Below, one piece after another: positions 1 through 57,992 of a stretch of DNA of 64,000 bases. Source of the DNA: Tetradesmus obliquus (Eukaryota; Chlorophyta; Chlorophyceae; Sphaeropleales; Scenedesmaceae); NCBI GenBank assembly GCA_030272155.1, contig CP126200.1, forward strand, positions 5,096,001-5,160,000, given 5' to 3'. How positions within the stretch are numbered: position 1 is the first letter of the stretch; every line of letters begins with the position of its first letter. A program made the position numbers and the translations under genes. The notes under the pieces are model-generated. The model made no database searches and had not been told where the DNA came from. It saw only the letters and a program-made list of their open reading frames with translations.

Positions 1-43
1 GACGCTGCTGCATGAATGCAACCAAACACTACCGTGCTGCTTC

Positions 44-189
44 TCAGCCCCTGCTCCTGCGCAGCCGAATGATCTAGCTGCTCTTCACTGTAAGCTCATC
101 CCGCAGCGTAGACTTCTCAGCCCCTGCTCCTGCGCAGCCGCATGATCTGTCCGTTCTTCACTATGAACTCATCCCGCAGTGTGAACTTC
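44..189 (-). repeat. 73-bp tandem duplication of the 3' coding end
   Basis: The last codons of the NTF2-like gene (117-189) are followed directly by a diverged copy (44-116) read in the same frame. The copy keeps the LRDE...RLRRSRG-stop pattern, but the Gln codon CAG of the true end is TAG in the copy, and IMR has become IIR. It lies just beyond the true stop, so it would be 3' UTR unless alternatively spliced. Confidence 0.85.
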
Positions 190-1094
190 CTCAGGCCCCA
201 CTTGAAGGTGTACTGAGCCACCACCAGGCTGGGTTTAGCCTTGGGGTCTGGGCAGGTCACACTCAGCAGCGGCTCAGGCATGCTGCTCGCCAGCTCAGCA
301 GCTGCTGCTGCTGCATTGCTGCTGCTGCTGCTGTCTACTGCATTTGCTGCCACCATCTTTACGAGCTGATCCATGCCTGAGTTTAGGCGTCGGATGATAG
401 CTGTCTTGCCTACATACAGCTGCTTGTCCATCCCCAGCATTTTAGCTGCCTCATGTAGCAGCTGCGAAACAGCTGCATCTGAGCCCCACTTAGTGTTGCC
501 AGTTGCCAGCGCCGCAAGAAATGCATCTGCAAATGCATTTGCAACTGCACAGCTGATGCCCGGTGAGTTGCCGCTGCCAATGAAGCTACCGCTGCTATTG
601 CCTGCAGCCGCCAGGTTGCCGGCACTGCTGCTGCTGCTGCTCATGCTGCTCAATGCACCGGAGCTCGGGTGCCCCTGCAAGCTGCTGCCAGCAGCAGCAT
701 TTGGTACTGAGCTGCTTCTAGCCGCCAGCTCGCTGCCACCAAAGCTGCTGCTGCTGCCACCACTCATCAGTGCTGCAGATCCACCCTGGCTGCCACGCAG
801 TGCCGGAGACGACTGAGATGAGTGCATTCGTGTAACCGCAAGTGCCACCAGCGAACCGCCGGTTGTCGAGCTAGCAGCACCCAAGCTAGTTACTGAGCTT
901 CCCGTAGACTGTGTCTCAAGCGCTGCCATGCTCGCACTGTGTGGCAGCTGCCTGCCTGCATAGCTGCTGGCAGCAGATAGCCCAGCTGTGGTGGCAGTGC
1001 TGGCGCTGCTGCTGCTGAAGCTGCTGACAGTGCTGCCGCACACTGCTGCTGCAGTGCCCTTGCGCACAACACTGCCAGGGCCCGGGCTGCCTCC

Positions 1095-1138
<44 letters not shown>

Positions 1139-1906
1139 AGTTTGGCGGCAGGGGCGGCAGGCTGCGACTGCTGCTGCTGCCAGCTGCACCAAGCGCTGCC
1201 TGCTGATCTTGCAGGCTAGCAGACACTGCATCGGCTGCAGCTGACATGTGATGGGGTTCAATTACGCTGACATGGGCGCTCCTGCTCCTGCGAGGGGTGC
1301 CACTTTTGCTGCCGCTGCTCTTGGCATCAACTGCGCTGTGCGCTGTGCTGCGCCGCAGTATGCCCCGCAATCCCTTGCTGCTGCTGCCTGCGCCGTTGCT
1401 GCTGCCGCTGCCTGCCGCTGCATCCTCGTCCGCTGCCGCTTCTGCTGCTGCTGCGGCGGCTGCCGTGTTACGGTTGAATGACCCCATCGACACTGCCATG
1501 CGCAGCTGCTGCAGCTTCTCTTTGGCGCTGCTGCTGCCGCTGCCGCGGTTGCTGCCTCCATCCATACTGCATAGGCTGTTGGCAGAAGCTGAGGGGCGCA
1601 GAATGCGGTGGCTGCTGCATGTGGATGAGGTTTCAGGGTCCAGCACTTCAAAAACCTGGGGTTCAGGGGCCAGGGTTGTAGACGATGCTGCCCAGCTGAT
1701 GCGGGTGCTGCGGGGGGTGAGCCCTGCAGGCGATGGAAGGGGGCTGCTGTGGAAGCCTGCTGCTGCTGCTGCTGCTGTTGTATTGACACTGCCGCTGCTG
1801 CTGGCACGGCTAAATGCAGCAGTGCCAGGAGCAGTGCCATTGTATGGCAGGGACGCGTAAGACAGAGCAGCTGAGCTGATAGACGGCATGCTGTGGCGCA
1901 GCTCAA

Positions 1907-1941
<35 letters not shown>

Positions 1942-3516
1942 AGCTGCTGCCTGAGGGACTTGGTGTTCATTAGGGTGGTTGCCACAGCCTGCTGCAGCGT
2001 TAGCTGTGCAAAGGGTGACGTGGCAGCCTTGTTGAAAGGAGACAGCGCATTGCTGCTGCTGCTGCTGCCGGCGGCTGGTGCGGATGATGGGCTAGCAAGC
2101 GCTGCTGCTGCCGCTGCATTGCTGCTGCTGCTGATTGAAAACTGAGGGTCAGACATGCGGAAGCTTCTGCCGGACTCCAGCCGAGGCAAGCGGTAGTTGG
2201 CTGGGGGCAGGAAGCTGCTGCTGGCAGATGGCATAGCTGGGAGCACGCCATTGGGCTGCCACTGGTCCTGCTGCTGCTGCTGGTGGTACAGTTGGCCCTG
2301 CTGCTGCTGCTTATCGTGTTGAAGCTGCAAGGGCTGCAAGGTCTGCTGCTGCTGCTGCCAAGGTGGGTTGGGGCTGTCGGGTGGGCCTGAGAAGCACAGA
2401 CACAAAAGAGGCAGACAGGAAGAGAAGGGTTGGTGAGCATATCAAGTAGGAGCACAACCAAGGTGGAGTGCACCCAAGCATCATTTCAGCTGCACGTCCT
2501 GTTGTGCAAGCACTGTGCTGTACTGCTGCTGCAGCCTGTGTGCAAGAACGCCTATCAACCTTCAAACGCATTCAGCAGATCATCTGTTCAAGCGTCGCAG
2601 CTGTTTTGAACCCACCTGCTGGTGCCGCTGCCTGCCGTGAGCTGCCAATTGCTGCTGCCGTTGCTGCCATGCTGCTGCCAGCTGCAGCAGCGTCTGCAGC
2701 TGGGCCATGCACCGAGCTCTCACTGACGCTGACAGATGCAGCAGTGGCATGGCAGCTGTTGCTGGAGCTGAACTGCTGCTGCAGCGGCTCCTGCAGCAGC
2801 ACACTGCTCAAGCTCCCAGGCACGCTCTGCACCCCTCTGGCCTGCTGCTGCTGCTCTTCCTGCTGCTGCCGCTGCTGCTGCTGCTGCTGCTGCTGCTTGC
2901 TCTCTGAGCTGCTTGCAGACACACTGCGTGTGCTGCCTGCTGCCTCGCCGCTGCGCTCGCAGCTAGTCCCATAGCTGCTCAGCACCTTTTGCTGCTGGAA
3001 CTCGCTGTGAATTTCAGAGGGTGAATCTCCGGTATCATGGTGCCTGATTGCGCCTCCTGCGCGCTGGTACGCTTGCACGCCTGCTGATGCTGATAAGCTG
3101 TGGCAGCCGACAGCAGCAGCAGACAGGCTGGTGCTAGTCAGGGGTACGCTGCAGCTGCTGCTTAATGCGCAGCGCTGCAGTGCAGGGTTAGCGGCTGCTG
3201 CAAGTGCTGCAGCATCCAAGCTGTGCCGATGCTTGTGATGCTGAGAGGCGGAATACCGTGGCCGCCGCTGCTGCTGCTGCTTGGCGTCTGCCGCGCCATC
3301 AGCTGCTGCTGCTGCTGTGGCATGGGCGTGCTGCGGCGGCGGCTGTCGCCGCCAGCGGCTCCAGAAAGCTGTGCTGCCAGGCTGCTTCTGTGCGCGGCCG
3401 TCTGCTGGCACTACACGGCTGCTTGCTGCGTTTTTGACAGGGGAGTCTGCAAATGCGTCAGCAGCTGGCGCAGCTGTGCAGCATGACAGTGGGCCTGAGA
3501 GTTTCAGCCGCATCAT
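117..3516 (-). CDS. Gln/Ala/Ser-rich protein with C-terminal NTF2/SnoaL-like domain
   Basis: Two exons (3516-2616 and 2386-117, joined in phase 1) give 1,056 residues ending in TGA. The start is ATG ATG at 3516, preceded by ACC; further upstream exons are not excluded. Most of the protein is low complexity, with runs of Gln, Ala and Ser, among them about fifteen Ala near 1096-1138. The last ~150 residues are different: an alpha-helical stretch around FADAFLAALATG, then YVGKTAIIRRL, then beta-strand-like VAQYTFKWGLRKFTL and EFIVKNGQIMRL. This order of helices followed by a curved sheet, with a YxGKxAI motif, is typical of SnoaL/NTF2-like domains, which occur in many algal proteins of unknown role. 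No catalytic residues can be assigned. It is divergent from the protease gene. The function of the long disordered region is unknown. Confidence is high for the gene and moderate for the domain. Confidence 0.72.
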
Positions 3517-5645: not shown

Positions 5646-5680
<35 letters not shown>

Positions 5681-5787
5681 CATCAGTTTTCGGCATCCCA
5701 GGGTTCTCAGGCATGGCTGGCAACGATGGTGTCTGGAGCAGCATCAGCCAGATAGCAAGCGCACAGCAGGAAGCAGTCAATGCGGCA

Positions 5788-5821
<34 letters not shown>

Positions 5822-8800
5822 TGGCAGTGCCTGCTCGTGCTGGCCAGATCCCAAGGCAGCAGGACTTCATGATTATTGGGGGTGCTGAGGCGCCCAGGGA
5901 TAGGTGCGGCTGCAGTAATGTGAAGTTGCAGTTTCTAGGCATGATAAATGCACAGCTGCGCACCTGCAAGCAGTGCTGGACCAGAAGCCCCCTGCCCTAA
6001 GGCTCCTAGTGTTTGCTGTGCGTTTTCCCTAGGGGCTGCTAAGCAGCGGAACAGTCTGCTGACAGTGTGGCTGCAGTCCAGCGTGATATGTGGCCAGCAT
6101 TTTTGCTTCTTTATGCATGTGTTATAATTGCAGTGGTACTCGATTGGTGCCAATGCTGGGATATGATGCTGCTGTTGCTGCTGCTGCTGCTGTGTGCGGC
6201 AGGTACGACTGGATGGGCTCGCTGCGAGGCACAAATTACTTCCACTTTTGCGGCTGCTCGCTGATTGCGCCCAACGTGGTGATGTCAGCAGCACACTGCC
6301 TGGATCAAACCGACCCTGCACTGCGCCTGCCGTGGGTGGAGGTGAGATTAGGACATTGTGGTGCTGCTGTCTTAAAAGCAGGCAGCAACAGTAGGGTCAC
6401 CAGCAGCAGCAGCAGCAGCAGCAGCAGTGCACTGTCTGGACCATGCCGGCCCTTTGCTGTGCCTGCCGTGGGTGGAGGTGCACGGATTTTAGTGTGTACA
6501 CCTGTAACTATGTGCAGCATAAATGCATCTGGCGTGTGATGAATGGCGTTACGCAACATAAGTTGTGTGATACCGCAGTGCCCAACAGCTGCGCTGCCAC
6601 GTCTAGCCGCAAAGCATAGCAGGCGAGGCAATTGTGGGCGCCGGCGCCGGGACAAAATGTGCGGCACCTGCCCACGTGTCGCTTGAGGGATGGGCAGATG
6701 CGGCCAAGCGCCTGCCGCGCAATCAAGGGCCCCATCTACAGTGCTCATAAATGTTGTCCAGCATTCAGCATAACCTGCCTGCTTTCCTGTGCAACCACTG
6801 CAGATCGGTCGCTACTACCTGGCTGGCGCCAACACCACCTACAACAGCTATGAGCGCATTAAGTGTGAGAAGAGTGTGGTGCACCCGGGCTGGTCAGTCA
6901 AGCACGGCCGCAACGACATCTCGCTCTGCTTCCTTGCCAGCGCCTCTCGCTTCACGCCAGTGACGCTTTCCAAGGGTGAGCAGTTTGAGGGGTTGCAGGA
7001 AAGACATTGCATATCGCGTTTGTTTACAGAGGATTGTGTGAAGCTGCAGTGTGACAGCCTGTACGAGGGCTGTAGAAAAGAGCAGACAGCGTATGTACGT
7101 GCCAGATATCTGGCCCATCCCTCCCAGCTGCGCGCTATTCCAGCTGCCAGCAAACGCTGCAGTTGCAAGTGCGCATGGAGCGCGCGCAGGGCGAGAAGGC
7201 GGATGCTTTAGAAGCACAGGACTGAGCGCATTTGGCACACAGCTTGCACAACACCATAGCCAACTGCCACCGCGTATGTGCATCGAGCTCTCCATGCTAT
7301 GTCAGGCGCTGCTTGCCGCTCAACCTCTGTTATGGCCGTGGCTTATGCTGCAATCATGGGGCTGTTGCTGCCTGTGCTGCAGATGGCCAGACCCCTGGAA
7401 CTGGGACCCCTGTGACGGTGAGAGCCAGAGTTGTGCTGCTGCTTCAAAGCTTTCTGCACTGGTGGACATTGACGTGCAAGCTGCAGAAGCATACAGTGTT
7501 GAGGTTAGGCAATGTGCTGCACCAGGCATCTGACATCAGCGTCGCCGTGCAGCACAATGCTCCTGCTGTGACACTGGTTACAAGCGGTCACCAGCATACT
7601 GAGATATGCTTTATGCTTGCTGTCGTGCTTGACACACTCACAACAAGTCATGGGCTGCGCCGCTTGCAGCTCCCAGTTTGAGGTCGCCACCAATATCCGA
7701 TATCGGTTGAGTCAACGTGCCTGTTGAAATGTAATACAATGATGCTGCAAGTACTGGTGTGCCTGCTGCCATGCTTGCCATGCACACCTGACTACAGTAT
7801 ACTCTGCAGGTGATGGGCTGGGGCTCCTAGAAGGAGGGCGCCACCAATGCAGACACATTTGTAACATAAAGATGCTTGTTGTATGGTAACATGGTGATGA
7901 TAAACATGCTGGTGTGTCTGCTTCCATGCGCATCATGCCCTGCTGTATACAGGTGATGGGCTGGGGCTCGCAGAGGGAGGGTGCCACTAATGCAGACAGC
8001 CTGCTGGAAGTGTCAGTGGATGTAACAGACCTCGGGGCCTGCAACACGACCTTCAAGGGCAACTTGCGCTCAACACAGATCTGTGCGGGCATCCCAGAGG
8101 GCGGCAAAGGTGCGTCAACAGGCAGATCACAGGAAGATCAGACTTGAATGCATGCAGGCTGGCTGCAGACCTGCGCGGGCGTCGCAGAGGGAGGCAAAGG
8201 TGCGTCGACAGGCAGATCACAGGGAGAAACATTTGAATGCATGCAAGCAGGCTGGCTGCAGATCTGCGCGGGCATTTTGGAGGGCGGCAAAGGTGCGTCA
8301 ACAGATTATAGGGAGAGCAGAGTTGGATGCATGCAAGCAGGCCTGGCTTCAGATCTGCGCGAGCATCCCAGAGTGAGGCACAGAGGTGCATGGGCTAGGC
8401 GACTGCAGAGCCAGATGCTGCTGCTTGCTGCATTGCTGCATGCTGCAGCTGCTGCAGCATACGTACAAGGGCCAGGTCTGGCCAGGGCGGGTGTCATGTA
8501 TCTGCACATCAACGTACAACTTTGCTGCTGCTGCTGCTGCTGCTGCTGCCACTTACTGTTTGGCGCTGCAGATGCCTGCCAGGGTGACTCTGGCGGCCCA
8601 CTCATCCTGCTGGGCGACAAACCCGCAGACGACATGCAGGTGGGGCGGCATGCAGCACACAGGAACATTGGCACAGAACATGGCCTGTAGCGCTTGGAGA
8701 CACCTTGCCTTAGCAGCCGCAGTGACTGTTGTAGATAGATCATCCAAGAATGCTTGCTGTAGACGCGTGGCACCAGCCTGCGTCACTCGTAGTCCATTGC

Positions 8801-10974: not shown

Positions 10975-11008
<34 letters not shown>

Positions 11009-11058
11009 TCCACCTGTCAAGCTTACCACCACCGCCAACAACAACAACACCAGCAGCA
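10286..11058. other. Convergent 3' region between protease and p34-like genes
   Basis: This holds the protease 3' UTR (with a T-run just after the stop) and the far end of the p34-like transcription unit. A minus-strand TGTAA, the usual green-algal polyadenylation motif, is at 10759-10755, downstream of all four copies of the p34 last exon. No protein-coding gene was recognised. Confidence 0.4.
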
Positions 11059-11888
11059 TCACTTGTTCTTCACGCCCAAGTGCTGCTGCCCACCCGCCCG
11101 TGCCGCTGCTGCCTCCCCTGCATCATCATCGCTGCCCTCGCCCTCCTGTCCCGCCAAGCCACACATGCTGGACATCACTTGCGCACGTCCAGCTGTTGCT
11201 GCCCATCCGTGCGTGCCGCTGCTGCCTCATCACCATCTTCGCTGCCTTCCGCCCCCAGGCCCCACATGCTGGCCAGCTTCATCGCCATGTCAGCAGCGGC
11301 GCTGCGCGAATGCAGCGAGCCCTGCCTGCTCACTGCGCTGAAGTGAAGTGCGTGATCAGCCCTGTGTCAAAGCGACTGCAGCACTGTAGGTGCTGCTGCT
11401 GCGCTGCCATAACCTTCCAGCTAGGCAACAACAACCACAACAGCAGCATCATATGCTCTTCACATCCAGCTGCTGCTGCCCATCTGCGCGAGCTGCTGCT
11501 GCCTCTTCATCATCATCGCTGCCCTCCTCCCCCAGCCCCCACATGCTGGCCAGCTTCAGCGCCATGTCAGCGGCAGCGGCTGCGCACAGGCAGCACTGCG
11601 TGCTCACTGCGCTGAAGGTGAGCGTATGGCACCCGGCCAGCCCTGTGACAAACCAGCTGCAGCCCTGCTGTTCTTTCTTCCGCGTGATCGGCAGCGACCG
11701 CAGTACTTCACTTACACACGTCCAGCTGCTGCTGCCCATCTGCCCGTGCGGCTGCTGCGCCCCCTTCATCTTCATCTTCGCTGCCCTCATCACCCAGCCC
11801 CCACATGCTGGCCAGCTTCAGCGCCATGTCAGCAGCGGCGCTGCGGCGCTCATCATCCGGCAGGTGCGACAGCCGCGCACGCATGCCT

Positions 11889-11890
<2 letters not shown>
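11059..11890 (-). repeat. Four tandem copies of the p34-like terminal exon
   Basis: Going downstream on the minus strand there are four related blocks, each ending in its own TGA: stops at 11710-11708, 11451-11449, 11177-11175 and 11061-11059. Each encodes versions of MALKLASMWGLG followed by an acidic stretch and ARADGQQQLDV, but with different ends: VCK, VKSI, VRK and (fourth, most diverged) VKNK. Copies 2 and 3 retain a CAG acceptor close to the conserved AAADMA start. All lie upstream of the only TGTAA motif seen (10759-10755), so all may be within the primary transcript. Confidence 0.88.
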
Positions 11891-11950
<60 letters not shown>

Positions 11951-12267
11951 TAGTGCACTGTTGTAACCTCCGCATGGGGTCAATAAGGGCACAGCCAGTG
12001 ATGCCAGAGGCCATGCATGCACTCACGTAAGACCTGGCAACTGCAGTCGCAGCAAGCTACATGCAAAAACAAACATTCATCAGTACTGGGCTGTGTGCAG
12101 TGCAAGCATATCATGTCAGCTAAATACAACACAACAGCCTGCAAGCAGAAGGGAGTATGGCCAGTTGGTGTTGCTGGAAACAGAGTTTGACAGCTCACCC
12201 TGCAGCTGCTTCATCATCTGCTCAAAGTCATCCAAGTCAAGGTCGGCCTCATCCTCATCAGCAGGCG

Positions 12268-13536: not shown

Positions 13537-15654
13537 ATGGGAGGCAACAAGGGAGACAGAAAATCTTACAAAGCCACCAGCAGCGCCAAAGCTGCTGAGG
13601 CGTTGGCTGCCAAGGGTGCCGGGACTGCTGGCTTTGGAGGGTACGTGACAGCAGCAGTAGCAAGTCACACTGCCAGTCACGACGCTGCAGAAGCGCCTGC
13701 TTATAGCGCCATGATGCCACCATGACCTTAACTCATAGTATTAATGGTTGGAGTGCGCCTGCAGGTTCTCAGGGCTGCGGCCCGTGGCAGGGTTTGGCTT
13801 TGGGGCACCAGCGGCAGCTGCTGCTGCAGGAGGCGCAGCAGCAGCAGACCCCCTGGAGCTCTCTGCACAGCTGGATGGTGATTTTGCGCAATGCCTGCGG
13901 CATCTGTCCAAGCGGGACACAACCACCAAGATGAAGGCGCTGCAGGTGAGCAGCCACAGTGCAGCATGGCGGTTACGTATCGCAGTTGATGCGCACGTGT
14001 ACTGCTCAGCGCAGCAGACGTCCTGTCTCATCGCAGTAACGTCTACATCGCTCCTGATTTTCTACCTATACTTGCAGCAGCAACATCTGCACAAATCATC
14101 TGTGGTCCGTGCTGGCACTCCTGTTGTTTGTCACTCTTGTCCACAGCGCCCACCCTCCAAACCTCTCCCTGCAAAACCCCTGCAAAACCCTCCTGCAAAC
14201 CCTTCCTGCAAACCCCACCACAGAACCTCCGCGAGCTCATCCCCCAGAAGACAGCCGCTGACCTGGCGCTGCTGCTGCAGCCCTGGGGCTACCAGTTCAA
14301 AAAGCTGCTGCTGGACCCCTCAAAAGCAGTACGGTCAGAGGCAGCAGCCATCATGGCAGCTGTGGGCTCTGCAGTGGGCAAAGGCTTACTGCCTCAACTA
14401 AAGGGCTTACTGGGGCCATGGTACCTGGCGTACTTTGATCCTTATCCTGATGTTGCGGGTGCTGCCAAGCGCTCGCTGGCAGAGGTGTTTCCTGGCAAGA
14501 AGCAGGCGGACGCGCTGCTGTATTGCAGGTGAGCAGAGAGAGGGGGTTGAGGGTGGGTGAGGTTGCTGCAGGTGGGGTGGCAGAAAGCAGCGGACGCGCT
14601 GCTGTACTGCAGGTGAGCAGAGATTGAGGCGTGGGGGGTGCGGGTGGGTGAGGTTGCTGCAGATTGGGTGGCAGGAAGCAGGCGGATGCTTTGCTGTACT
14701 GCAGGTGAGGGTGTGATGGGCTGGGCTGAGGGATGGGCTTTACTTCCACAGGCTGCATGTTCCTCAAGATCAAATGCCATCTTCATGTGACCCTGTGGGG
14801 GTAACAAAATCGCCAGTGACCACACGCCTGTACTGGAGCAGAAGGCTTGCATGGTGGCAGGTGGCAGGGGTGGGGCTGTGCGGCATCTTTGCTTTGGCTG
14901 GAGCAGTACTGCAACTGATGTCCACTCCGTGTGCTCACAACAGCAGTTGTCTGGCGGCCACTTTGCACATCTTCCATGCTGGAGAAAGCCAGAAGATGGG
15001 GCCCGCAAAAGCCTTGTGTTGCTGAGCGTTGCTCCTCTGCCACATGCTGCTTGCTGTGCTTGCGTTGCCTGCCTTGCATCTGTCTGAGGTCTGGGGTGCT
15101 CAGCCATCAGCAGCTGCCTGCTAAGTAATGCCCAGAGGTTGGGCCATGATAAGCCTCTTCCTGAGTGTTGTTCATGTGCCACATGCTGCTGGGTGTCTGT
15201 GCTTGCCGCAGGTCTGAGGTGCTCGGCCACATCTGCAGCTGCCTGGCAGCAACCCCCCAAAGCTTAGGCGATGCCCGCAAAGACACACCAGAGGAACTGG
15301 AAGAGCGCCACGAGCGCATCACAGCAGCAAGCCTTTCGGCAGCAGCAGCACTACTCAGCACGCTGCAGCAGCAAGAGCAGGAGCAGCAGCAGGATGCGGC
15401 TGCATCCGCAGCAGCGGCAGCAGCGGTGGAGGAGGTTTCCTGCAAGCTTGATGAAGTCTTGCAAGCACCTGGGTTCTTCAAAAAGCAGCTGGGCTCGAAG
15501 AGTGTGGTGGTGCGGCGTGCAGCGTATGGGCTTGTGCGCAGCTTGGCTGCTGGCACGCCGCAGCTGCTGCGCGGCTGCCAGGCTGCTGCTGCGCCTGCTG
15601 TGCTGGGCGCTCTGCAGGTGCGCTGGTACTGGGAGTTAGGCAGGCGCTGCCAGG

Positions 15655-40632: not shown

Positions 40633-43600
40633 TGGCAGTAATGCTGCTGGTAACACCCGCAGTGGGGCAGCCGATGACAGCAGCAGCGTGTGCAGCAACG
40701 GCAACTGCGCAGCAACTAGTGCGTTGGGTTCAGCTGTCACCGTGCCCTCTGCACCGAGCCCTTGGCTGTCAGTGCATGCCCCCAGCAGTTGCAACAGCAG
40801 CAGCAGCTCGCTCAGCAGACCTGCAGCACCGAACCCATGGGAGCTGCTGCAGCCTGCAGCATCAAGTGCATCAGGATCTTCAGCAGCAGCAGCAGCAGCA
40901 GCAGCAGGAGTGACAGCAGCGGGCGGCGTGCCTGGTGTAACTAGTGCCGCTGCTGTGACGTCACCCAGCTTTGGTGCTGGTGAGACGGGTGACGGCTGGG
41001 AGATGGTGTCCGAGCATGTTCCCTGTGAAGCTCTGCCTGCACCTGGCAGCAGTGACACAGACACACTGCAGTCCCTGGTGGAGCACCTGTCACAAGGTAA
41101 GCAAGCAAGCAAGCCTCTGTGGTCCATTGCTGACGTGATGCTCTGGCAGCTCCACATGCAGGTTTGTTCCTCCTCCCCAAAAGGCAGCACCATGTGTGCT
41201 CAAATCTCCTCCGCACTGCTTTGGTTGCTGGGTTACCTGCATCAGGTTGCTGGATTGCCTGGGTGCCAACTATCTTCTTTTACACCTGCGTGCTCATGCT
41301 ACTCCTGCCTCTGTCTCACAAGTGCAATGATGCCTCTGCTGGTGTGCGCAGTGTCGCTGGATGCGTCCCGTGCCGCGCAGGCGTCTGTGTTCCAGGCCAT
41401 GCTGCACGAGGTGCCCTGGGTGCAGGGGGAGGGCATGCCGCAGGACATCGACCCGCACGGGGAGTACGCGCAGCTGCTGGCTGCAGGTGCGCAGGATTTG
41501 CAGTGGGGCAGCAGTCAGAAGAGTTGCAGTTCTTTGCGTCACGAAGGCGTTGCAGAGAGAATGCAGAGAGTGCATTCACTTCTTCTTATCAACGAAGCGG
41601 CTGCAACGCTGTGCAGCAATGCATGCTGTTTCCCCATGCCACAGCATAGAGACGGAAGAAAGCTGGTTGAAACACGTCCTAGTGAAGACGGTTGTGCTGC
41701 ATCCGCTGTGCATGCAGGTTGTGGCGCTGTGGAGGATGTGATTGTGCGCGACGTGCCGCGCACGTTCCCGGAGCACCCGCTGTTCGCCACGCGGGACGGC
41801 CAGCAGCGGCTGCTGCGGTTGCTCAAGGCGTACGCGGCAGCTGACCCTGAGGTACTCCCCAGCTGTTGATGCTTTGTATGAGGATGCATAATTTGCTGGT
41901 GGCGCTGTGCGGCTGCTTGGCAATAGTGCGCAGATGAGTGTTGCGATACTTAGTGTGAGCACACTGTCTAGCAGCCTGCAAGCATGCCTGCGTGTGTGTT
42001 GGGCTGCAGGTGCTGAGGGATAGACGTGATGGTGCATGCATTTACAGTGCTGGTTGTGCTTTGTATGTGCTGCAGGTGGGCTACTGCCAGGGCATGGCCT
42101 TCCCTGCAGGCGTGCTGCTCATGTACCTGCCGGAGGAGCATGCATTTAGGTGAGGCCTGCATATGTGCAGCGCCAGCACGCTGCGGAGGAGACGCACAGG
42201 AATGCATGTGGATGCACGTATACATATAGCAGCAGCAGTTGTCAGGGGAACAAGCCGTGCAGTTGGTTAGGCATGGTTGCAGCTTGCCTTGCAGAGTAAC
42301 GCAGTGCGGCTGCTGCTTGCAGTGATGCGTCTTGTCTCCAGAAAGGCCCCTGGCATGCTATTGCCAGCAGGCCATGTTGACAGAGCCAACGAACTTGACA
42401 GTGACACTAACAGAGAGGGACACTTCTGCATGCCTGCAACATCTGCCCTGCAGGCTGTTCCAGCGCATGATGCTCAGCGGGCCCACGCTGCGGCGGCTGT
42501 ACCTGCCAGGCCTGGACTTCCTCAAGGTGACTTGACCTGCAAGCTGAGCAGCTGCTGCTGGCTCGGCAGCTTATCCAGCACTATGCAGCAACAATGCATG
42601 CAGTACGCATGCGCCAACGCTTGCAGGAATGGGTGGCAAGTTGCGTGCTCGCGCACTCACATGAAGCCAGTTTGGCACCACTCGTCCCATTCTGCTGCTT
42701 TTTGACCTGCTCCTGCTGCTGCTGCTGCCAATGCGCTGCAGCTGGAGCTGAGCCGCTTCGAGCTGCTGCTGTCCACGCACGCGCCGCAGCTGCACCAGCA
42801 CCTGCTGGATGCTGGGCTGCCAGCGCTGCTGTATGCGGCGCAGTGGCTCATGACGGCCTACGCATGCCCCTTCCCAATCCATGTGGCGGCGCGAGTGATC
42901 GATGTGCTGCTGCAGGTGCGGCAGGGGCCGTTTCCGATCGCACCACGCCTTACACTGGTGGTGAAAGCCATGGATGGCGCACTGCTGCATTCTGCTGTTG
43001 CGCAAAGGCCCCAAGATGGATGCGATGTAACTGAATAGGCTGCAACGCAGATGCAATGCCGCACGCTGAACCTGTGCTTCCCGCGGCTGGCTCCCTGTCA
43101 TGAAAAATGCGACAAACAGAGGCAAGAGCAGGCATCAGTATTTCGAGAATACCTTTGAACTGCGCTGCAGGCTGATGACGAGGCGGTGCTGCTGCGGTTG
43201 GGCCTGGCCGTGATGGCTGCGCTGCAGCAGCCTGTCTGGATGTTAAACTATCTCCTCTTCACATCACTAGAGCTTTTTGGCATGTGGCTGCGCTGCAGGC
43301 TGATGACGAGGCGCTGCTGCTGCGGCTGGGCCTGGCCGTGATGGCTGCGCTGCAGCAGGGGCTGCTGGAGCTGGATGACTTTGAGGCGCTCATCACACAC
43401 CTCAAGGTGGGGACAGGGACAGCTGCTGCTGCTGCTGCTATCGCTGCTGCCGCTTGGATGCTGTTACCCTGCTGCATTGTCAGCCCTCTGGGCAGCTGCA
43501 CCAATCTGTAGCGGCCTCAACCTTGAGTTTTGCTTTCATTGTTCGACCGTAATCTCTGTGTCCCGGCGGTAGGGTGTGGCAGTGACCTGTGCTGCTGCTG

Positions 43601-47417: not shown

Positions 47418-47489
<72 letters not shown>

Positions 47490-50395
47490 GCAACAGCAGC
47501 AGCAAGCCGCTAGGCCATGCCGAGTATGTGGCAGCGCTGCTGGACATGGAGCCAGAAGAGGCGGAGGCCGAGGCAGCTTACCTGATGGCCAAGCTCAACT
47601 TCAACAGCAACTACGCATTCGGCAAGTTCCTCACGGAGCTGCTGTTTGCGGACACCAGCATCAAGCCTGGGGTGTCGCGCGCAGTGGTGCGGCCCTCGCT
47701 GATTGCGCCAGTGGCAATGGACCCCTACCCAGGGTGAGTGCGGGGCCTGCTGTTGACCCGCTTCTGTTATTGTTCCTGCACATGACTTCGTTTACAACTG
47801 CAGCTGTACGTTGGCTTGCTTGCTGGCTGCACAGATTCGTGGTGGTGGTTGATGTCTGTGCTGCAGCTTCCTGCAGCAGCGCTGTGCACCACGCCATGCC
47901 ATAACGCACAGCATGCCTAGGCAGGTTCCCAGGGTCACTCGCTCGACACCATTTCAACATGTGCTTGTCACTGCCGCTGCTGCTGCTACCACTGCTGCTG
48001 CTGCTGCTGCTGCAGGTACGTGTCGGGCTTTGGTGGCCCCAGCGGTTACACCATGGGCTACGCCGTGGGCTTCTTCCACAACGTGGCCTCAATCGCATAC
48101 GGCAGGTGCGCAGTGAAGCTGCTGCCGCTGCTGCTGCTGCTGCTGCTCAGGGGTCTCTTGTAGTGCTGCGCTGTTGACTCTGATGTACATGCGTTGATAA
48201 GCTGTGGTGTTGTTTCGGGGCTTCTTCCACAACGTGGCCTCCATCGCATACGGCAGGTGCGAAGCAATGCACTGCGGCCAGCTGCATATCTATAGGAGCA
48301 CGACGCTTCCAGGACAGTGTGTTGCATCTGCTGGGTTTGGCTGTGACATGGATATCATGTGCGCTGCCTTCCACCTTGCACATGCATTCACCTCTCAGCT
48401 CAAGCACTCCAGTGGGCGTTTCGCTTTGCCAACTGACTGCTGCCTTGCTGCCCTAGCACTGAAATTTTGTCATCTTGCTCTCTTACCCCTGTTTCGGCAT
48501 CCGCCGCAGTGACTACGTGATGGACTTCTTGCCCGTGCCGCCTTGTCTCTGATGTTTCTGCCTGTCATCTTCTTGTCAGAAAGGTTCTGCCTGTCATGTT
48601 CTTGTCACTTATTTACTTGTTATGCCTGCCATCTTCCCGCCTTCCCGCTTGCCGCAGTGACTACGTGATGGACCTGATCCCTGCGCCTTGGCTTCTGCCG
48701 CTTGCCGCTCTTTGCTGATGTTCTTTCTGTCTGTCATCTCGCTGTCGTGCCTCCCGCATCTGCTACAGTGACTACGTAATGGACCTGATCCCTGCAGACA
48801 GCGTGGGTGCAGTGGTGCTGGCAGCAGCAGCAGCAGCACTCGAGTCCAGCGGCAGGCCCCACGCCTCATCCAAGCTGACCATCTACCACTCTGCCAGCGG
48901 CCACAGCTACCCCTGCCCGCTGCCGTATGTGCTTGATGTGGTGGGCAAGTTCTGGGAGGTCAACCCTCCGCCGCTGCTGCTGCCGCTCAGCACACCGTGA
49001 GTTCCTTGTCACCTGCTGCAGTCCGGCTTGTGCTTGTTTTTGCTTGCCTGGTTGCTGCTCTTCAGCTGATGCCTCCCGAGTGAGTGTCCAATTGCACTGA
49101 AGCAACCCAACCTATGCAGCTGCACTGATGCAATTCAACATATGCTGTGGCTGCCTGCTCCCACACCGTTGTTGCGGCTCATGCCAACTGAGATAGTGCC
49201 AGGACCCACATGTAACTATCCTTTTGCTGTTGTGCGTGCTTGCAGGTATGCACGGTTCACCAGCGAGCGCCTGCAGCCAACACAGATCGGCATGACTGTG
49301 GGGCGCTGGATCACCCAGGTGGGCAGGCTGCTGATGCACGGTCAAGTTCAGCAATGAGGCATAGCACGTTCGTTGTTGGCAGCCAGCGTGTGACGTACTG
49401 CAAGTCAAGCATCAGCAAGGATCCCCCAAATGCCACCAGTTTTGCAGCAACTCAACAGCAAGCGCTTGACGGCGTCGCTACTGCTCGTGTTTCTGTTTCG
49501 CAGGCCAAGATCTACGCTGTCGGGTGGGTGCTGTGGGCTGCTGGCAAGACCAAGGAGGCCAACCTGCTGAAGACAGCCTTCAAGGCCTTCAACGTGTACA
49601 ACAGCAGGCGCTATGACCGTGAGTGGTCCTGCTAGCTGCTGCTGCTGCTGCTGCTCCTGCTGCTTTTGCGTCCTTGCAATCAGGACTTGCTTGCCTTTGC
49701 CTTTGCAGCATGATTGTTGGTGGCTTCTGGGCAGCCGAGGCCGCGTACCGTCCTCGCCCACCGTCCCTACCAAACGCCGCTGACGCATGCAGTACATATG
49801 TTTTTTACATAAATGTATACTATTTGGTGTTCCAACACATGCGCCCCCTGCTGCTGCTGCTGCAGGCTCCTTTGCCAGCGCGGTGGACAATGTGCGCGCG
49901 CTGCAGTCGCGCATGCCGGCCTCGCTGCGCAGCGCCTGGCCCATGCTGTGGGAGGAAATCGTCATGCCTTGGGAGCGCTACGGCTACATCGCCTGCTCGG
50001 GCATGCGCTGCCTGCTGTTCCGTGTCAATGAGGTGCCTAAGACGCACCTGGCAGGCATGAAGTTTGAGATCAAGCAGGGCGCGCAGCCGGCCGAACTGGG
50101 CCTCACTACAGCAGCAGCAGTAGCAGCGGCAAGCTCGCCGGCAGCTTCAGCAGCAGCAGCAGCAGACTCGGAGGCAGGGAGTGCAGTGTCAGGAGATGAG
50201 GTGGGGTCAGCAGTGCTGCAGGAGGTGGAGTTGGTTGATGCTGTGATGGATGTGGGTGGCGCTGCACGCCGCGCAGCAGCAGGCAAGGACCAAGCAGAGT
50301 CTAAGCTGTGTGCAGGGGCGGCTGCTGCTGCTGCTGGCGCTGGCGGCAAGCTAATTGAGGTAACGGCTGCTGCAAGTGTTGCTGTCGCGCAGTGA
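45860..50395 (+). CDS. FAR: Fatty acyl-CoA reductase (alcohol-forming)
   Basis: Nine exons: 45860-45964, 46295-46408, 46801-46967, 47215-47733, 48016-48105, 48769-48996, 49246-49318, 49504-49618 and 49866-50395; 646 residues, stop TGA. This is the NAD_binding_4 type of short-chain reductase. Its dinucleotide loop TGGLGFLG is at residues 16-23, VEKVYLLVRSK follows, then NGDLSLPQMG, VIHCAAHI, NYMGTRNLL, FVHTSTYFV, and the catalytic YAFGK (Tyr262, Lys266), then SRAVVRPSLIAP. The C-terminal FAR_C-like helical part includes TVGRW, KTKEANLLK and FNVYNSRRYD. It reduces long-chain acyl-CoA with NADPH to fatty alcohol for wax esters or ether lipids, usually at ER, peroxisome or plastid membranes; no targeting peptide is obvious. 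Oddities: 14 consecutive Asn (198-211) inserted before the catalytic Tyr, and a long Ala-rich tail. Intron 5 carries echoes of both flanking exons. Confidence 0.92.
47420..47508 (+). repeat. In-frame (AAC)n/(AGC)n run coding for poly-Asn/Ser
   Basis: Fourteen AAC codons followed by mixed AGC/AAC codons lie in exon 4 of the reductase, between the TSTYFV strand and the catalytic YAFGK helix. It stays in frame. This is the only sizeable AAC tract seen in the window; most others are CAG/GCA/AGC. Confidence 0.9.
48030..48800 (+). repeat. Echoes of FAR exons 5 and 6 inside intron 5
   Basis: The end of exon 5 (GFFHNVASIAYG plus GTGCGC, donor at 48106) is copied at 48217-48256 with donor GTGCGA. The beginning of exon 6 (CAG then TGACTACGTAATGGAC, exon from 48769) is copied at 48510 and 48658, reading SDYVMDFLPVP and SDYVMDLIPAP. 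The intron thus carries one donor-type and two acceptor-type echoes. Confidence 0.9.
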
Positions 50396-50408
50396 GGATG
50401 CTGCGGGC

Positions 50409-50452
<44 letters not shown>

Positions 50453-52090
50453 AGCATGCAACGGCAGGCTCTGGATGTGGCGCGCAATTTATTGTGTACG
50501 CTGTGCGGCGCAGCACTGGTTTCATCGCTGTGTGGTGGGTTGATGCTTGGGGCGCAGCGCGGCTGCAGTGTGGCCGCCTGGTGCGCATTAGTGGGGGCGT
50601 TTTGTTTGACATGCTCGTTTTAGGGGTGCGGATGGGTCAGTTGACGCTGAGGAAATGGATGTAGCCAAGCGCGGCATCGTCATATGGCGCGTTGAGCAGA
50701 TGCTTGTGGACTGGGCGGCCCGCCTCGACTGGTCCGATGCATTTTATTGCGTGCATTTACTCTTGATTTTGTCAGTACCATAGTATTTTGTCAGGCTTAC
50801 CAACAAGGTTGACCAACAGACCTTACCGCCGCACGGAGTTGTATGCGCCGGCACCTGCGCGCACCTGGTGCAGCGGTGCCCAACTGCCCTCTCAGCGAGC
50901 GGCTGCTGTTCCTTGGATTGTGTCATTCAGTTACCCTTTTACATAGGCCCCCGCCTGCTTTCAATGTAGGCTGGACTGCACATGGCATTCTGCAGGGAGG
51001 CTGATTCTTGAGCTCTGGTGACACTGGTGGGCTGCGGTGCCACTGGTGGGCTGCGGTGCCACTGGTGGGCTGCGGTGCCACTGGTGGGCTGCGGTGCCAC
51101 TGGTGGGCTCTGGTGCCACGGCGGGCTGCTGCGGTTGACAGTCTCTGTAGCATGCAGTGCAGTGTGCCGTCACGTGCGTGTGTTTTCGTGTGCTGTGCTA
51201 GATGTTGCTGGCAAGAGCAGGGCCAGTGTGTCGCTGCCGCCGTGCCAGATGCGTAATGCCCCTGTTGGTGTGTTGCGGCGATGCGTAGCTAACATGTGGA
51301 TGTTGCCAGGGTTGTCAGTTTCACAGGATGACATGACGGGCCTAATCATGGCCCACTTGACTACAGCCAGTGTAGGGTTGTTACAACAGCATGCCAGACG
51401 CGGTTTGCTGTGTGTCTTTGGATTTGCTTTTTGCCTCACGCGGATAATTTGAAGAAGTGCTCAGCTGCTTCGTGTGGGAGCGGCCGTTGACGGTTGATGA
51501 CCGATTGGTCTGCACTGTGACGTTCTACTGTTCCAGGGGTCTGACGCGCACCGCTTGTTGCTACGCATGTTCAGCAACTGCATGATGAGCATGATGGGGT
51601 GTGTACTCACCTCGTTAATAAACAGGCTGGCTGCCGGTTTGTGTGCTGGGTGCTGTGGTGTGATTCATTGACGGGTCAATATGACCTGGTTCAGCGCGGA
51701 TGGTGGGGCCAGGTGTAGCGGCTGTAGCTTGTGTAGAGTGACAGCAAAGACAGACGACAATGACGTGCTGAGAGCATATAGATCGCAGCAACGGGCGACA
51801 GCGTGCGCTGTGATGTCAATGGAGCGTGCGTACTCTTGGAATGTCGGATTGTGGAGGCGTATACATGTCCGGTTCTGTGAATACACCCTGCAGGGGTCGA
51901 GGATGCGGACCAAACAACAATGTGTGTGTGGCATGAGAGAGCAGCGCACAGTATCAACGTGGCTGCAGACATTGCCGGTGCTGGAGATAAGGTGGCCAGC
52001 CTTGTGCTGTGTTGGGCTGTTTCCAGCATGGCGGGGCGGCTGCTGGCTGCACATGAGATCAGCACACGCACATATCTTGATTTCAGGGGG
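50396..52090. other. FAR 3' region and gene-poor spacer with minisatellite
   Basis: Contains a CTG run (about 50410-50452) just after the FAR stop and a 19-bp minisatellite at about 51014-51120. Several medium open frames exist on both strands but none shows a family motif together with consistent splice sites. I see no supportable gene. Confidence 0.35.
51014..51125 (+). repeat. 19-bp minisatellite, about five units
   Basis: The unit GGTGCCACTGGTGGGCTGC is repeated head to tail about five times, with near-perfect central units and diverged ends. Nineteen is not a multiple of three, so the array is not expected to be coding. Confidence 0.9.
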
Positions 52091-53090: not shown

Positions 53091-53607
53091 TCCCCGGTGT
53101 GGCGATGCTGTGAGCTAAAATAGGCTGGTCCCACAAGCCTTGTGCCCCGCAAGCCTTGTGCCCATCATGGGCTTCAAGGGCCTTGAAGGCATGCATGGTA
53201 TGCTTTTGGAATGGGCCACGAGCATCACCTTGTTCACCTTTGATTACCCAAACATTGAGCTTTTATTTCAGATATTCTATGTGGACGATTCAGAGTCGTG
53301 TAACTCACAACAGTCATGCCTGCAAGTTTGAACATGCACAGCGGTGCCCAGATTGATGCTGGTGAATGCAATATACTGAGGCCTGCACACGGGCCTTATG
53401 AAGCAAAAGAGGGTCGACACTAGCATTATAAGTTTGTTCTCCGCTTTGGTGTGATCTCAGCAGCTCAACATGCACTCAGTTTGAGTGTCTGGGGTCTAGG
53501 TCCAGGCACCTGTCACCCAGCCCTGCCTCTTACTTTGCCCGGTGTCCCGCACCCCTCATTGTGCGACCGCTTGTCAGGGTTGTACAGATCACTTTCAAGA
53601 CACAAAC

Positions 53608-55205
53608 ATGGCCGAAGAAGCACCAGTTGACGTGCCTGTGGCCGCCGAGCCAGTTGCTGAGGCAGAGCAGCCCGCAGCAGCAGACGCACAGCTGGAGCAG
53701 CCCGCAGCAGATGCAGAGCAGGCAGAAGATGCTGAGGCAGGACAGAAGCGAAGCCGGGACGATGAGGCAGCGGAGATCGATGGCGAGCCCGAGGCAAAGC
53801 GCCTGGCTCCCGCAGATGGCGAGGCAAGTATTACCATTACTTTTATATGAGACATAAGGGTGATCATTGAAGACATCAGGCTTAGCTTGTATCTGCGTGC
53901 ACCGTGCTGCTGTCTTCTGCTCCTGCTGCCCGCACACAGGGTGGTGCTGCAGCAGAGCCAGCAGCAGTCGATGCAGGCGCAGCTGCTGCAGCAGCCATAG
54001 CAGCGAGTTTGGTTGCTGCGCATGCAAACCCAGGTGCAGAGCAGCCAGTGGTGAACGGCAACCCGGGCGTGCACGGTGCTGAGGCAGCAGCTGGAGGCAA
54101 CCCAGGTCACGGTGATCACAGCAACCCAGGTGCGCATCCTTAGTTATAAAAGTTTGCGTGGCATTGAGTGCATGTGCATGTGCTGCAAGGAAACCCGCGC
54201 TTCTTCGGCTTATCGTAGCTGCTCAGTTGCTTTGCTGGATCATATACCAGCTTCCCACGTTTATGCATCTTCCAACGATCTTTTTTTGGCTTTTCAGCGG
54301 CCTGCGCCGTACGCGCTTCCCTTGGACAGGCATCATGTTGCATCACTGTCTGGCTCATCCTTTCGTCTTCAAGCAGCAACATAACCAAGCTGCAGCTACT
54401 ACACGCCCGTCTCCACGCCTTGGCCGTACACTCTTACCCTTTACACCCACCAGCAGCACCAAACCTGCTCAGTGCATTGCATCCTCGTGCTGCCGTCTGA
54501 TCTGGGAGCTGCTGCGCTGCTGCACACGCTGGCTGAATGCGGTGGCATGGCCTCGGCCAATGCTGCAGGCACAGGAGGCAGCGCACCTCCCCCAGTGCGG
54601 GACGGCTTCCCAGTGGTGACAAACGAGGACGGCAGCATCAGCGAAGTGCTGGCCATCTCAAAGCACCTGGTGGGCAAGCTGATCGGCAAGGGCGGCACCA
54701 CCATCCAGCAGCTGCAGGCAACCACCTCCACCAGCATCCAGATAGACCAGGTGGGTGGATGATGCTGGGGTTGTGTGGTGGGACTGGTGATGGGGTGCGT
54801 GTGAGAGGAGTGAGCTGGGGAGTACAGGATGTTCATACATGCGTGGAGCTACAGCAGCAGCAGTAGGAGTAGCAGCAGCAGCAGATAATGTTGCATGCAA
54901 TGCATGTCTTGCATGGTCTGTGTGCTGCATTACTCTGTTGTAGCTGCATTCAGTGAGGAAGAGGCTTGGGTTCCACTTGTATGCCTGGCATGGGCCTGCT
55001 GAGGTGGCAACAGCAGCAGCAACTGCCATGCCAAGCCAAGCCAGGGTCCTCACACCCAGCACAGCAGCAGTGTGTGCATTGGTGCAGCAGCAGATATGCC
55101 TCCCACCTGATGCTATTGGGCCCTTGCTTGCCCATTACGTGCCAGTCAGCAGCTTCCTGCAAGAGTGCTGATCGCTCATTTGCTGCTGCTGCTGCTGCTG
55201 CTGCC

Positions 55206-55240
<35 letters not shown>

Positions 55241-57992
55241 CCTGCAGGAGGGCAATGAGTTTCCTGATGCTAAGAAGGTCACTGTGCGCGGCTCTGCTGA
55301 GAGCGTGGCCAGCGCCAAGGCCCAGATCAAGCAGGTGCGGCGCGACACTGCATGCTGGCTTTGGCTTTGATCAAATTAACGCTGGTGACAGCAGCTGCGC
55401 TACCACCGTGCGAGGTCCAGGCAGCTGCCGACATGCTCCCATCCTGGCCATTCGATCATTGTATTACTTGCTCTGTCTCCCTTCCACAGCTGCTGCATGT
55501 GCATGATCGCGTGCATGCAACCACATCCATCCCTGCATTATGCATCCTGCCCTCAACACACACCAAGATTCATCGCCAACAACCACAACCGCAGGTGCTG
55601 GAGGAGGCTGTGCAGCCTCGGGAGCTGCATGCACATTCTACCTTGTGATCCACATTACATTACTGGCCCCATCGCCGCAACTGTACCTGCCACTCCACGC
55701 AGGTGCTGGAGGAGGCTGTGCAGCCCGGGGAGGGCGAGGTGGAGGAGCGCCTGAGCTGCATGCACACTCCACTCTGCACAATACTGACCTCATCGCCTCA
55801 TCACTGCACCCTGCAATATCAACAAACAGGTGCTGGGGAGGCTGTGCAGCCCGGCGAGGGCGAGGTCGAGGAGCGCCTGAGCTGCATGCACACTGCACCC
55901 TGCACTTTGCACGCATGATACTGACCCCATCGCCTCATCATTGCAACTGCACCCCGCAACCACCACAACTGTAGGTGCTGGAGGAGGCTGTGCAGCTCGG
56001 GGAGCTGCATGCACATTCTACCTTGCGATCTGCATTATATTACTGACCCTATCGCCGCAACTGCACCTGCCACTCCACACAGGTGCTGGAGGAGGCTGTG
56101 CAGCCCGGAGAGGGCGAGGTCGAGGAGCGCCTGAGCTGCCCCAGCAGCCTGGTGGGGCGCATCATCGGGCGCGGCGGCGAGACCATCCGCAGCCTGCAGG
56201 GCGGCAGCGGGGCACACATCCTGGTGGACCAGAACTACCCCGAGGGCGCGGACAGGTGAGCGCAGCGTCGCTGTGTTGCTGCAGCAGCTTGTTCTGACGC
56301 AGTCCTGGCTGCTTGCTGTTGTGTGTGCGCTACATCATCCGTCATGTGTACGCGCCCAACAGCAATGCATCTGACGCCACTGTTGCTGCTGCTGCGCTGC
56401 ATGACTCCTCTTGCGCCTGCAAGCAGGGTGGTGGTGATCAAGGGCCCGCCTGCCAGCGTGCAGCGTGCAGCAGCCATGGTGAAGGACCTCATCAGTGGCG
56501 AGCCGGGCACAGCCAGCCAGATCATCGCCAAGGTGAGCATTGCGTTTGAACTGGCTAGATGGGGCGTACGATGGTTGCAGTGTTTCGTCAGCGTGCGGCT
56601 TGTATATGGCCTGTGCATACCAATTGCTTTGAGGGAGACTGGGTACAGCACTTCTGTTCGATTCAGCCATTTTCCAGGTGCACGTGGCTGGCAGTCGCCT
56701 GCTGGTGTATGCTTCAGCACCTGGAGGCACTTCGCTGACTTCACTTGTGCTGCACTGCCGCCCTCCTCTGCCTCCCTCTGCACCCTCTTACCCGAACAGC
56801 ACGGCGTGGGCAGCACGCTGACGCTGCAGTGCCCTCGCGGCATTGTGGGCCGCGTGATCGGCAAGGGCGGAGAGACCATCAAGGGCCTGCAGCGCAAGTA
56901 CCACGTCTCCATCCAGATTGATCAGGGAGGCGATCCCATGGCAGTGACCATCACGGGGCCCAAGCACACCAGCGAGGCATGCAAGCAGGAGGTTATGGCC
57001 CTTATCAGCGACCCAATGGGCCCGCCCTTTGGCGACATGGGTGAGTTGCACTTTTTGGATGTTGTTTTGTTTGGTTGGTGCATTGGCAGAGGGCATGTGC
57101 AGGATGTATGATGCGAAGGCTGCTTGCCACGGGCGCAGAGTGCTGTGTTGTGTTGTGAACATGTGGCAATGCACTGGCCGTACACTTCAAAAATGCTATG
57201 CGTAATCCACTCCTACTGACCATGTCTCGTGACACCGGCCTTGCCTCGCTCTGCGCCCCTGCACATGCTGCTGCAGCCCCCGCCCTGTCTGCATGCACTG
57301 CTCGCCACACCCTCAATCTTTGTGTACATACTTTTCACGCAACATTGCTGCCTGCTGCTGCCGCTGCCTCTGCAGGCCCCCGCCCAGGTGGTGGCTTCCC
57401 CCGCCCAGGCGGCTTTGGCCCACCATTCGGCGGCCCAGCACCCTACTCAGGGCCCCCCGCCGGCTATGGAGGCTATGCACCTCCATATGGCGCACCATAC
57501 GGCGCTCCGGCACCCTACGGTGCACCCGGCGGCTACGGCGGCGGCTACCCGCCCGCCGGCGGCTACGGCGGCGGCTACGGCGCGCCAGCCGGCGGCTACG
57601 GAGCCCCCGGCGGCTACGGAGCGCCGGCTGTCGGCTACGGCGCGCCAGCCGCCGGTGGCTACGGCCAGCAGCAGGGCGCGTATGGTGGCCCGGCATCTGG
57701 CGGTGCCGGCTACGGCACTGCTGCCTCACCAACCGGCCAGGCTGGCGGCGCGTACGGGCAGCAGCAGCAGCCGGCAGCGCAGGCTGGGTATGGCGGCGCT
57801 GACGCTGGCGCTGCAGGCGGCTATGGTGCAGCTGGCGGCTACGGCGGCGCAGCATCTGGCGGTGCTGCGTCTGGCGGCGCTGCTGCGGGTGGCTCTGTGT
57901 GGTCAGCCATGCAGGATGACCAGGGCCGCACCTACTACTACAACACGCAGACGGGCGTGAGCCAGTGGGAGAAGCCTGATGGCATGCCCTGA
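53608..57992 (+). CDS. C1: Three-KH plus WW RNA-binding protein, CHLAMY1 subunit C1-like
   Basis: Eight exons: 53608-53823, 53940-54129, 54569-54750, 55248-55334, 56083-56255, 56427-56532, 56800-57040 and 57376-57992; 603 residues, stop TGA. The N-terminus is acidic and Ala-rich, with a basic KRSRDD patch. Three KH domains carry GxxG loops GKGG (175-178), GRGG (254-257) and GKGG (339-342). A Gly/Tyr/Pro-rich low-complexity segment (GGYGAP repeats) leads to a WW domain at the very end (W574, YYYN, W596, P599). Three KH domains plus one C-terminal WW is the architecture of C1, the subunit of the Chlamydomonas circadian RNA-binding complex CHLAMY1, which binds UG-repeat 3' UTRs together with C3. 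Plant and animal relatives are FUBP-like. Intron 1 appears to be GC-AG. Intron 4 holds four echoes of exon 5. Confidence 0.9.
53824..53939 (+). other. GC-AG intron (intron 1 of the KH/WW gene)
   Basis: Exon 1 ends GATGGCGAG and is followed by GCAAGT, a typical GC-type donor. Frame continuity into exon 2 (GGT GGT GCT from 53940) needs a phase 0 junction, which the GC donor gives. Using the nearby GT (GTATTA at 53828) would shift the frame. Confidence 0.65.
55595..56140 (+). repeat. Five tandem acceptor copies at KH/WW exon 5
   Basis: The true exon 5 begins at 56083 (VLEEAVQPGEGEVEERLSC). Four upstream copies begin at 55595, 55703, 55830 and 55975, each directly after AG. The copy at 55703 matches the first 19 codons with only two third-position changes. 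The copy at 55830 has a small deletion causing a frameshift. Those at 55595 and 55975 share an internal deletion and then GAGCTGCATGCACATTCTACC. Spacings are 108, 127, 145 and 108 bp. Confidence 0.93.

Follow-up and report, generated by a model that had tools for sequence, protein, structure and literature searches.

In a 64,000-nucleotide stretch of the Tetradesmus obliquus genome (C10:5,096,001-5,160,000; here called the window), the end of an exon and its splice site recur as one or more nearby direct copies in the adjoining intron or past the stop codon, and these copies are referred to here as echoes. A reading of the window made from its letters alone (the sequence-only reading) had listed 11 such loci, and local direct repeats were found at all 11 and also in arbitrary stretches of contigs C1 and C4 of the same assembly (104.66 Mb, 17 contigs). 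The echo pattern is true, and the good preservation of the exon side of each copy is its anomaly. The explanation that we favor, with a probability of about 50%, is that short tandem duplications of a characteristic length arise frequently, are kept where the protein is undisturbed, and are followed by exchange between the exon piece and its echo. The third of a megabase sampled holds dozens of edge duplications, with varied divergence and a narrow unit length.

The samples comprised the window, 200 kb of C1, and 60 kb of C4 (324 kb in total), the C1 and C4 places being arbitrary, not random. Exon edges were predicted by a gene finder self-trained on the same 324 kb, which fuses adjacent genes and at times labels an echo as an exon. 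It returned 42 genes, 538 exons, and 496 introns (median, 257 bases), with donors mostly GTGAGN or GTGCGN and acceptors GCAG. In a check of these models, 10 of 20 scanned exons matched Pfam at an E value of ≤0.001, two of them only below the family cut-off, and the domains included trypsin, Ras/p34, RabGAP-TBC, NAD_binding_4, and KH. Independent protein evidence for true exon edges exists for the listerin gene; for the trypsin and KH genes, Pfam backs the coding status only. Repeats were scored in 40-base windows with at least 31 matches at offsets of 30 to 1,500, and control offsets were 20,000 to 21,470. Local direct repeats covered 5.1% of the window, 5.5% of the C1 sample, and 4.4% of the C4 sample, compared with 0%, 0.04%, and 0% at the control offsets. 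When clusters were counted at offsets of 60 to 400, the 324 kb contained 52 direct repeat clusters, 39 at a predicted exon edge, 4 intron only, 5 exon only, and 4 at gene ends or in intergenic sequence. Among the 39 edge clusters, 34 had offsets of up to 200 (median, 126 bp; interquartile range, 109 to 137), and the other five lay at 232 to 380. A seeded test, with less sensitivity than the direct-repeat one, found 2 clusters of inverted repeats within 400 bases, and inverted templated copies were rejected on this contrast of 2 with 52.

A period spectrum made with 30-base windows peaked at ~80 to 170 in the exon-intron, straddling, and intron-intron classes, with few runs in the intergenic classes; all classes together held 4 runs at 180 to 220, none at 190 to 210, and a minor second rise at 220 to 280. 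The exon-exon class was dominated by a handful of coding arrays, and intron-intron pairs also showed periods of 20 to 60. Because the same peak is found between intron windows, the ~126-bp scale seems to belong to the duplication process itself and not to splice sites. At least three copies were present in 18 of 50 clusters under a simple chaining rule. Most copies are edge pieces of ~20 to 80 bases, and a few echoes show a splice-like signal at their far end; the copies are not whole-exon tandem duplications in which both splice sites are copied and translated.

The placement of the repeats partly bears out the description of them as centered on splice sites. An excess at edges was observed (39 of 43 cases by cluster class and 37 of 42 by the rule of the simulations described below), but the spacing is similar between intron windows and in two of the four gene-end or intergenic clusters (124 and 137), and geometry itself accounts for ~49%. 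By geometry, the share of tolerated placements that straddle a splice site is 40% for 90-bp units, 49% for 125-bp units, and 57% for 160-bp units, and since about half of the tolerated 125-bp duplications fall on a splice site, common edges need no targeting. The intron-only cases include a minisatellite (51006) and a gapped edge echo (15016). The former, at 51006-51129, is an intronic 19-bp minisatellite with six copies according to Tandem Repeats Finder (TRF) and is among the four intron-only clusters. Fifty-base exon-edge probes matched their own intron at a score of ≥18 for 17 of 395 donors (null, 0.25%) and 15 of 400 acceptors (null, 0.1%), and probes placed 60 bases inside the exon matched in 4 of 298 and 0 of 303 cases.

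Introns with an echo (n = 32) had a median length of 423 bases versus 253.5 for those without one (n = 464; p = 1e-6 against others of 90 or more bases). That echoes lengthen introns, as the sequence-only reading had proposed, is thereby supported; longer introns are also larger targets, so this is support rather than proof. Its suggestion of slippage at CTG-rich sequence found no backing, since the mean content of CTG/CAG runs was 0.041 in 25 echo introns and 0.036 in 335 others of 200 or more bases (p = 0.46).

The copies diverge unevenly on the two sides of the splice site. On the exon side, the anchored profile fell from 0.95 at the edge to ~0.43 at 30 to 35 bases inside, and on the intron side it started at 0.80, a value that includes the splice consensus, and was down to 0.43 at bases 5 to 10 and ~0.3 beyond. 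Intron flanks were homologous at p ≤ 0.01 in 8 of 29 echo events. Among 86 pairs of real and echo sites, which as rows are non-independent and were joined into loci, flank homology at p ≤ 0.05 was detected in 8 of 35 rows and 5 of 19 loci with an exon identity of ≥0.93 and in 22 of 51 rows and 9 of 21 loci with an exon identity of <0.93. Part of the events is read as behaving like ordinary tandem duplication, and in others the exon piece was kept and the intron part was lost. Under neutral duplication, the divergence of the intron part should keep pace with that of the exon part (at about twofold), which holds for some of the loci but not overall. Hypermutability of introns was rejected as the reason for the lost flank similarity, because the loci with homologous flanks are roughly in step with their exon parts, as read rather than computed. 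Many well-conserved exon pieces have lengths divisible by three, in a list that is partly shaped by the gene finder and was not relied on.

Plain neutral tandem duplication, with units anywhere, both copies drifting, and edges special only through the slower change of exons, would give part of what was seen: the 40 to 57% straddling share for units of 90 to 160 bp, the homologous intron parts of some loci, the mismatches by codon position given below, and the matches of intron-interior probes (5 to 11 of 191). Neutral simulations, which assume a single substitution rate, uniform ages, and simple indels, nevertheless yielded 46 to 48% intron-only detections (78/170, 53/111, 33/70, and 136/282), whereas 5 of 42 cases were observed by the simulation's rule (P = 3e-6) and 4 of 43 by cluster class, the observed edge labels coming from the gene finder. 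The same simulations gave homologous flanks at an exon identity of ≥0.93 in 69/76, 70/83, 46/59, 23/32, and 18/29 events (62 to 91%), against which the observed 5 of 19 loci have a P of 0.002 even at 62% and less at higher expected values. Plain neutral duplication therefore fails for part of the echoes, and being already disfavored for those events, it seems to us an unlikely account.

The one-sided profile could also arise at birth, if copying linked to splicing or to nucleosomes were directed to the edge and the intron part were never duplicated. The steep fall on the intron side fits such copying, as does the finding that three searched echo regions lack a non-microsatellite match elsewhere in the genome. 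However, weak intron similarity is visible by eye in several high-identity cases (C1 94139 and window 21318 and 55595-56140), full-unit duplications exist (C1 2618), and the splice consensus is part of most copies (25 of 29), so spliced RNA is unlikely as the template. We regard edge-directed copying as very improbable. A broader proposal appears doubtful, namely that a duplication process tied to exon edges and having a nucleosome-like 126-bp scale copies exon sequence as far as the splice site and gives rise to, or preserves, spare intronic splice sites by the thousand.

Across 40 splice-anchored events (150-base probes; a few low-scoring ones among the 40 may be chance), mismatches at the three codon positions numbered 68/580, 55/578, and 99/575, which fits the ratio 1:1:1.75 of a free-drifting echo beside a silently changing exon (p = 0.40), and equal rates were rejected (p = 0.001). 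At 58 sites, some of which are two labels of one event, 67 changed codons were silent and 113 were replaced (180 in total), the silent/replaced counts being 30/49 with homologous intron flanks and 37/64 with non-homologous ones. Coding constraint on the spare copy was thus not supported by either the replacements or the codon positions, and translated echo micro-exons were rejected because replacements outnumber silent changes. In addition, gapped alignment revealed frame-breaking gaps in several echoes.

Selection could instead act on splicing and keep echoes whose splice sites or exon pieces are used in alternative or poison splicing. Median echo donor and acceptor scores (5.43 and 4.23) are near those of real sites at the same loci (6.52 and 5.59) and far above those of random intronic positions (-0.48 and -0.84; 29 each), with a bias to high scores as some echoes are called exons by the gene finder. 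Conservation ends at the splice consensus, and the earlier statement that copies keep GT or AG applies to 25 of 29 echo sites and fails at 4, although by our arithmetic ~80% retention would be expected regardless at ~10% divergence. The excess of replaced over silent codons, the frame-breaking gaps, and the annotated T. obliquus listerin (P0036), which has a single copy, also speak against selection, which we rate as decidedly unlikely. An alternative- or poison-exon role, one of the possibilities raised by the sequence-only reading, is a candidate with evidence on both sides: the echo splice sites score nearly as real ones, yet 113 of 180 changed codons are replaced.

From the observed repeats, their spacing, and the longer introns, we infer the following order of events for duplication followed by exchange. 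Tandem duplications mostly of ~85 to 160 bp (median, 126) would arise often in T. obliquus, possibly through copying where the DNA breaks locally or replication falters, for instance by staggered-end fill-in and then joining. They would persist inside introns, across one exon edge, or past the stop codon; at an edge, one copy would stay in use and the other would turn into intron, so that the intron grows by about one unit. The shared exon piece of the two copies might then pair and exchange, which would add copies, produce arrays of three to five, and keep exon piece and echo alike as the flanking intron parts drift apart. Exchange is proposed because arrays are common and because one C1 array contains a perfect 137-bp re-duplication that is anchored on a 54-bp exon piece and has an outer flank not detectably related (p = 0.54); it would apply to the cases in which exon parts that are 93 to 100% identical stand beside unrelated introns.

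Several points weigh against this explanation. No duplication event was observed happening, and the exchange step is one that we infer only. The pieces that would exchange are only 24 to 60 bp long, which is short for homologous recombination, and exchange between exon pieces should delete echoes too. The neutral simulations that failed were ones without exchange. The sharp loss of similarity within ~5 bases of the splice site also fits selection on echoes or edge-only copying, and the third-position bias in the best-conserved cases is, in our reading, too thin to judge. Finally, intron-interior probes (introns of 300 or more bases) matched at a score of ≥18 in 5 to 11 of 191 cases (null, 0.3 to 1.1%), about as frequently as exon-edge probes. 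This speaks against edges being much denser than the interiors of introns, although the interior figure also counts minisatellites and the intron parts of edge units.

The listed loci of the window, at which repeats were further detected by TRF, self-BLAST, gapped alignment, and direct view of the sequence, are as follows.

27 to 194, minus strand: direct repeat with a period of 73 across the predicted 3' end of the minus-strand open reading frame (ORF) 117-2441.
6286 to 6496, plus strand: donor echo in a trypsin-like gene, offset 136; the real donor follows 6341.
7751 to 8006, plus strand: acceptor echo, offset 143; the real exon starts at 7953, and the intron part is homologous too.
8066 to 8391, plus strand: donor echo array of ~4 copies, period ~90.
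11029 to 11852, minus strand: array of last-exon copies, offsets 113, 256-281, and 387-390.
14485 to 14716, plus strand: donor echo array of 3 copies in the listerin gene, offsets 84/91/176.
15016 to 15275, plus strand: acceptor echo with a gap in the listerin gene, offset 123-139; the real exon starts at 15212.
21315 to 21643, plus strand: acceptor echo with offsets 123/117/240; of its 3 copies, the last (from 21573) is the real listerin exon.
21694 to 21894, plus strand: donor echo, offset 121-122; the real donor follows 21752.
43146 to 43373, plus strand: acceptor echo, offset 128; 58 of 60 exon bases are identical, and the intron flank is not detectably related (p = 0.82).
48051 to 48276, plus strand: donor echo, offset 151; 38 of 39 exon bases are identical, and the intron flank is not detectably related (p = 0.76).
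48488 to 48807, plus strand: acceptor echo of 3 copies, offsets 111/148/259.
55568 to 56153, plus strand: acceptor echo array of 5 copies (by eye), offsets 108/126/137/254/272/380; the real exon, with a KH domain, starts at 56083.

Two of the loci need another description than the one they had been given. The repeat at 44-189 is not a splice-site case, as its 73-bp period runs across the predicted end of ORF 117-2441. At 11059-11890, the array of exon copies was confirmed, but it lies at a gene end and not at a splice site: the likely last exon with its stop runs from ~11886 to 11708 on the minus strand, with a C-terminus common to the Scenedesmus sp. NREL 46B protein P0007, and the lower copies of the array are therefore past the likely stop. 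The weakest listed case is 15039-15275 (75% identity, gapped). The absence of echoes from the gene at 23-37 kb had been taken as a sign that the process is not uniform; with 27 predicted introns, the probability of zero echoes at the sample-wide rate is 0.066, which is not significant.

Comparison with other sources covers two loci, 6282-6482 and listerin. P0031, an ORF of another contig (source lgn), is 95% identical and contains the exon, spacer, and echo of 6282-6482. As two differing sources share this echo, an assembly error is unlikely there, and the collapse or expansion of the assembly that the sequence-only reading had considered is disfavored at this one tested locus. Between these two sources there is little difference in the intron spacer, and recombination or mis-joining of divergent haplotypes is also disfavored at this one comparable locus. 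An assembly or haplotype artifact would be conceivable in that a single assembly is the basis of the analysis; with P0031, echoes at many degrees of divergence, and arrays of at least three copies standing against it, it is exceedingly improbable.

Over 60 residues, the listerin exon of the window matches T. obliquus OEZ85_004072 (P0036) without a difference, and solved structures align with 21456-21752 only from residue 37 to 39, i.e., from the third copy onward. P0036 joins the exon ending near 21,174 straight to one repeat copy, which continues as the real exon (from 21,573), and also joins 21,752 to ~22,100. Holding a single repeat copy, that protein lacks the copies at 21,318-21,572. In the metagenome relative P0037, the 51 codons that precede the same listerin exon contain no echo (one out of frame would be missed), and the listerin echo may be lineage specific. 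The first 9 bases of the listerin intron (21175-21183) read VGI, as does the start of the downstream exon (21573-21581); because of this short direct repeat, the exact junction is ambiguous.

Elsewhere in the window, a minus-strand gene of ~1057 residues is predicted at 117-3516, and its 755-residue exon had no Pfam match at an E value of ≤0.001. Rfam and tRNA scans of the window gave no matches. Approximately 8 to 10% of 40-base windows were low complexity in the window and both samples, and the TRF list of the window consists mainly of CTG/CAG-type triplet runs. Longer arrays occur on C1. At 3,083,340-3,088,597, a tandem array with a 553-bp offset spans a predicted exon and intron, its best pair being near-identical over 710 bases, and at 3,126,844-3,130,491 and 3,133,459-3,135,092, long tandem repeats with best offsets of 1011 and 633 lie inside sequence that is predicted to be coding.

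Should the whole genome be as dense in edge clusters as the sample (39 in 324 kb), it would contain roughly ten thousand of them, and the lengthening of introns, the spare splice sites, and the origin of alternative splicing could be measured in a single organism. The well-kept exon parts beside lost intron parts are a concrete anomaly to resolve. The density, narrow length, and one-sided conservation were not found in the literature searched, and among the matches listed (titles and abstract starts, with most subscription journals outside the search), there was no report of such repeats in Scenedesmaceae.

Introners are described in excerpts of one paper as multi-copy families, some with target duplications of 3 to 9 bp (PMC9860276). 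Like the echoes, they bring mass change of introns; unlike them, they are multi-copy, whereas of three echo regions searched genome-wide (skipping simple repeats and very common words), two matched only themselves and one also matched microsatellite stretches. An introner or transposon origin was rejected, as the three regions are single copy apart from microsatellite. Small tandem duplications at breaks with complementary overhangs, filled in by CST/Pol alpha-primase, are reported from mouse and human cells (PMC8355091). These are direct local duplications as well and offer a possible mechanism of birth for the echoes, but the passages concerned mention neither a tie to exon edges nor a 126-bp scale.

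In the tandem genomic duplication model of intron gain (Rogers 1989; Hellsten et al. 2011, as described in excerpts of PMC4974935), tandem duplication is the raw material for intron change, as in the alga, and the echoes are likewise local head-to-tail duplications. The model, as described there, requires an AGGT-bearing exonic unit that supplies both ends of a new intron, and no such intron stood out in the alga. For introns whose ends would be two copies of one exonic segment, the best anchored ungapped identity over 40 bases was 0.575, the same as in the best random pair (0.575), and introns born from AGGT duplication were rejected because none exceeded this control. Edge-straddling duplication is already in print as a single case: as far as excerpts of the paper on potato RNA-dependent RNA polymerase go, that gene gained an intron by tandem duplication of an intron-exon structure (Ma et al. 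2016, PMC4974935). In both systems, a local tandem duplication straddles the intron/exon edge and copies splice signals. The potato gene represents one case and a new intron, whereas tens of cases were counted in 324 kb of the alga; these share a narrow unit length and apparently mostly lengthen existing introns.

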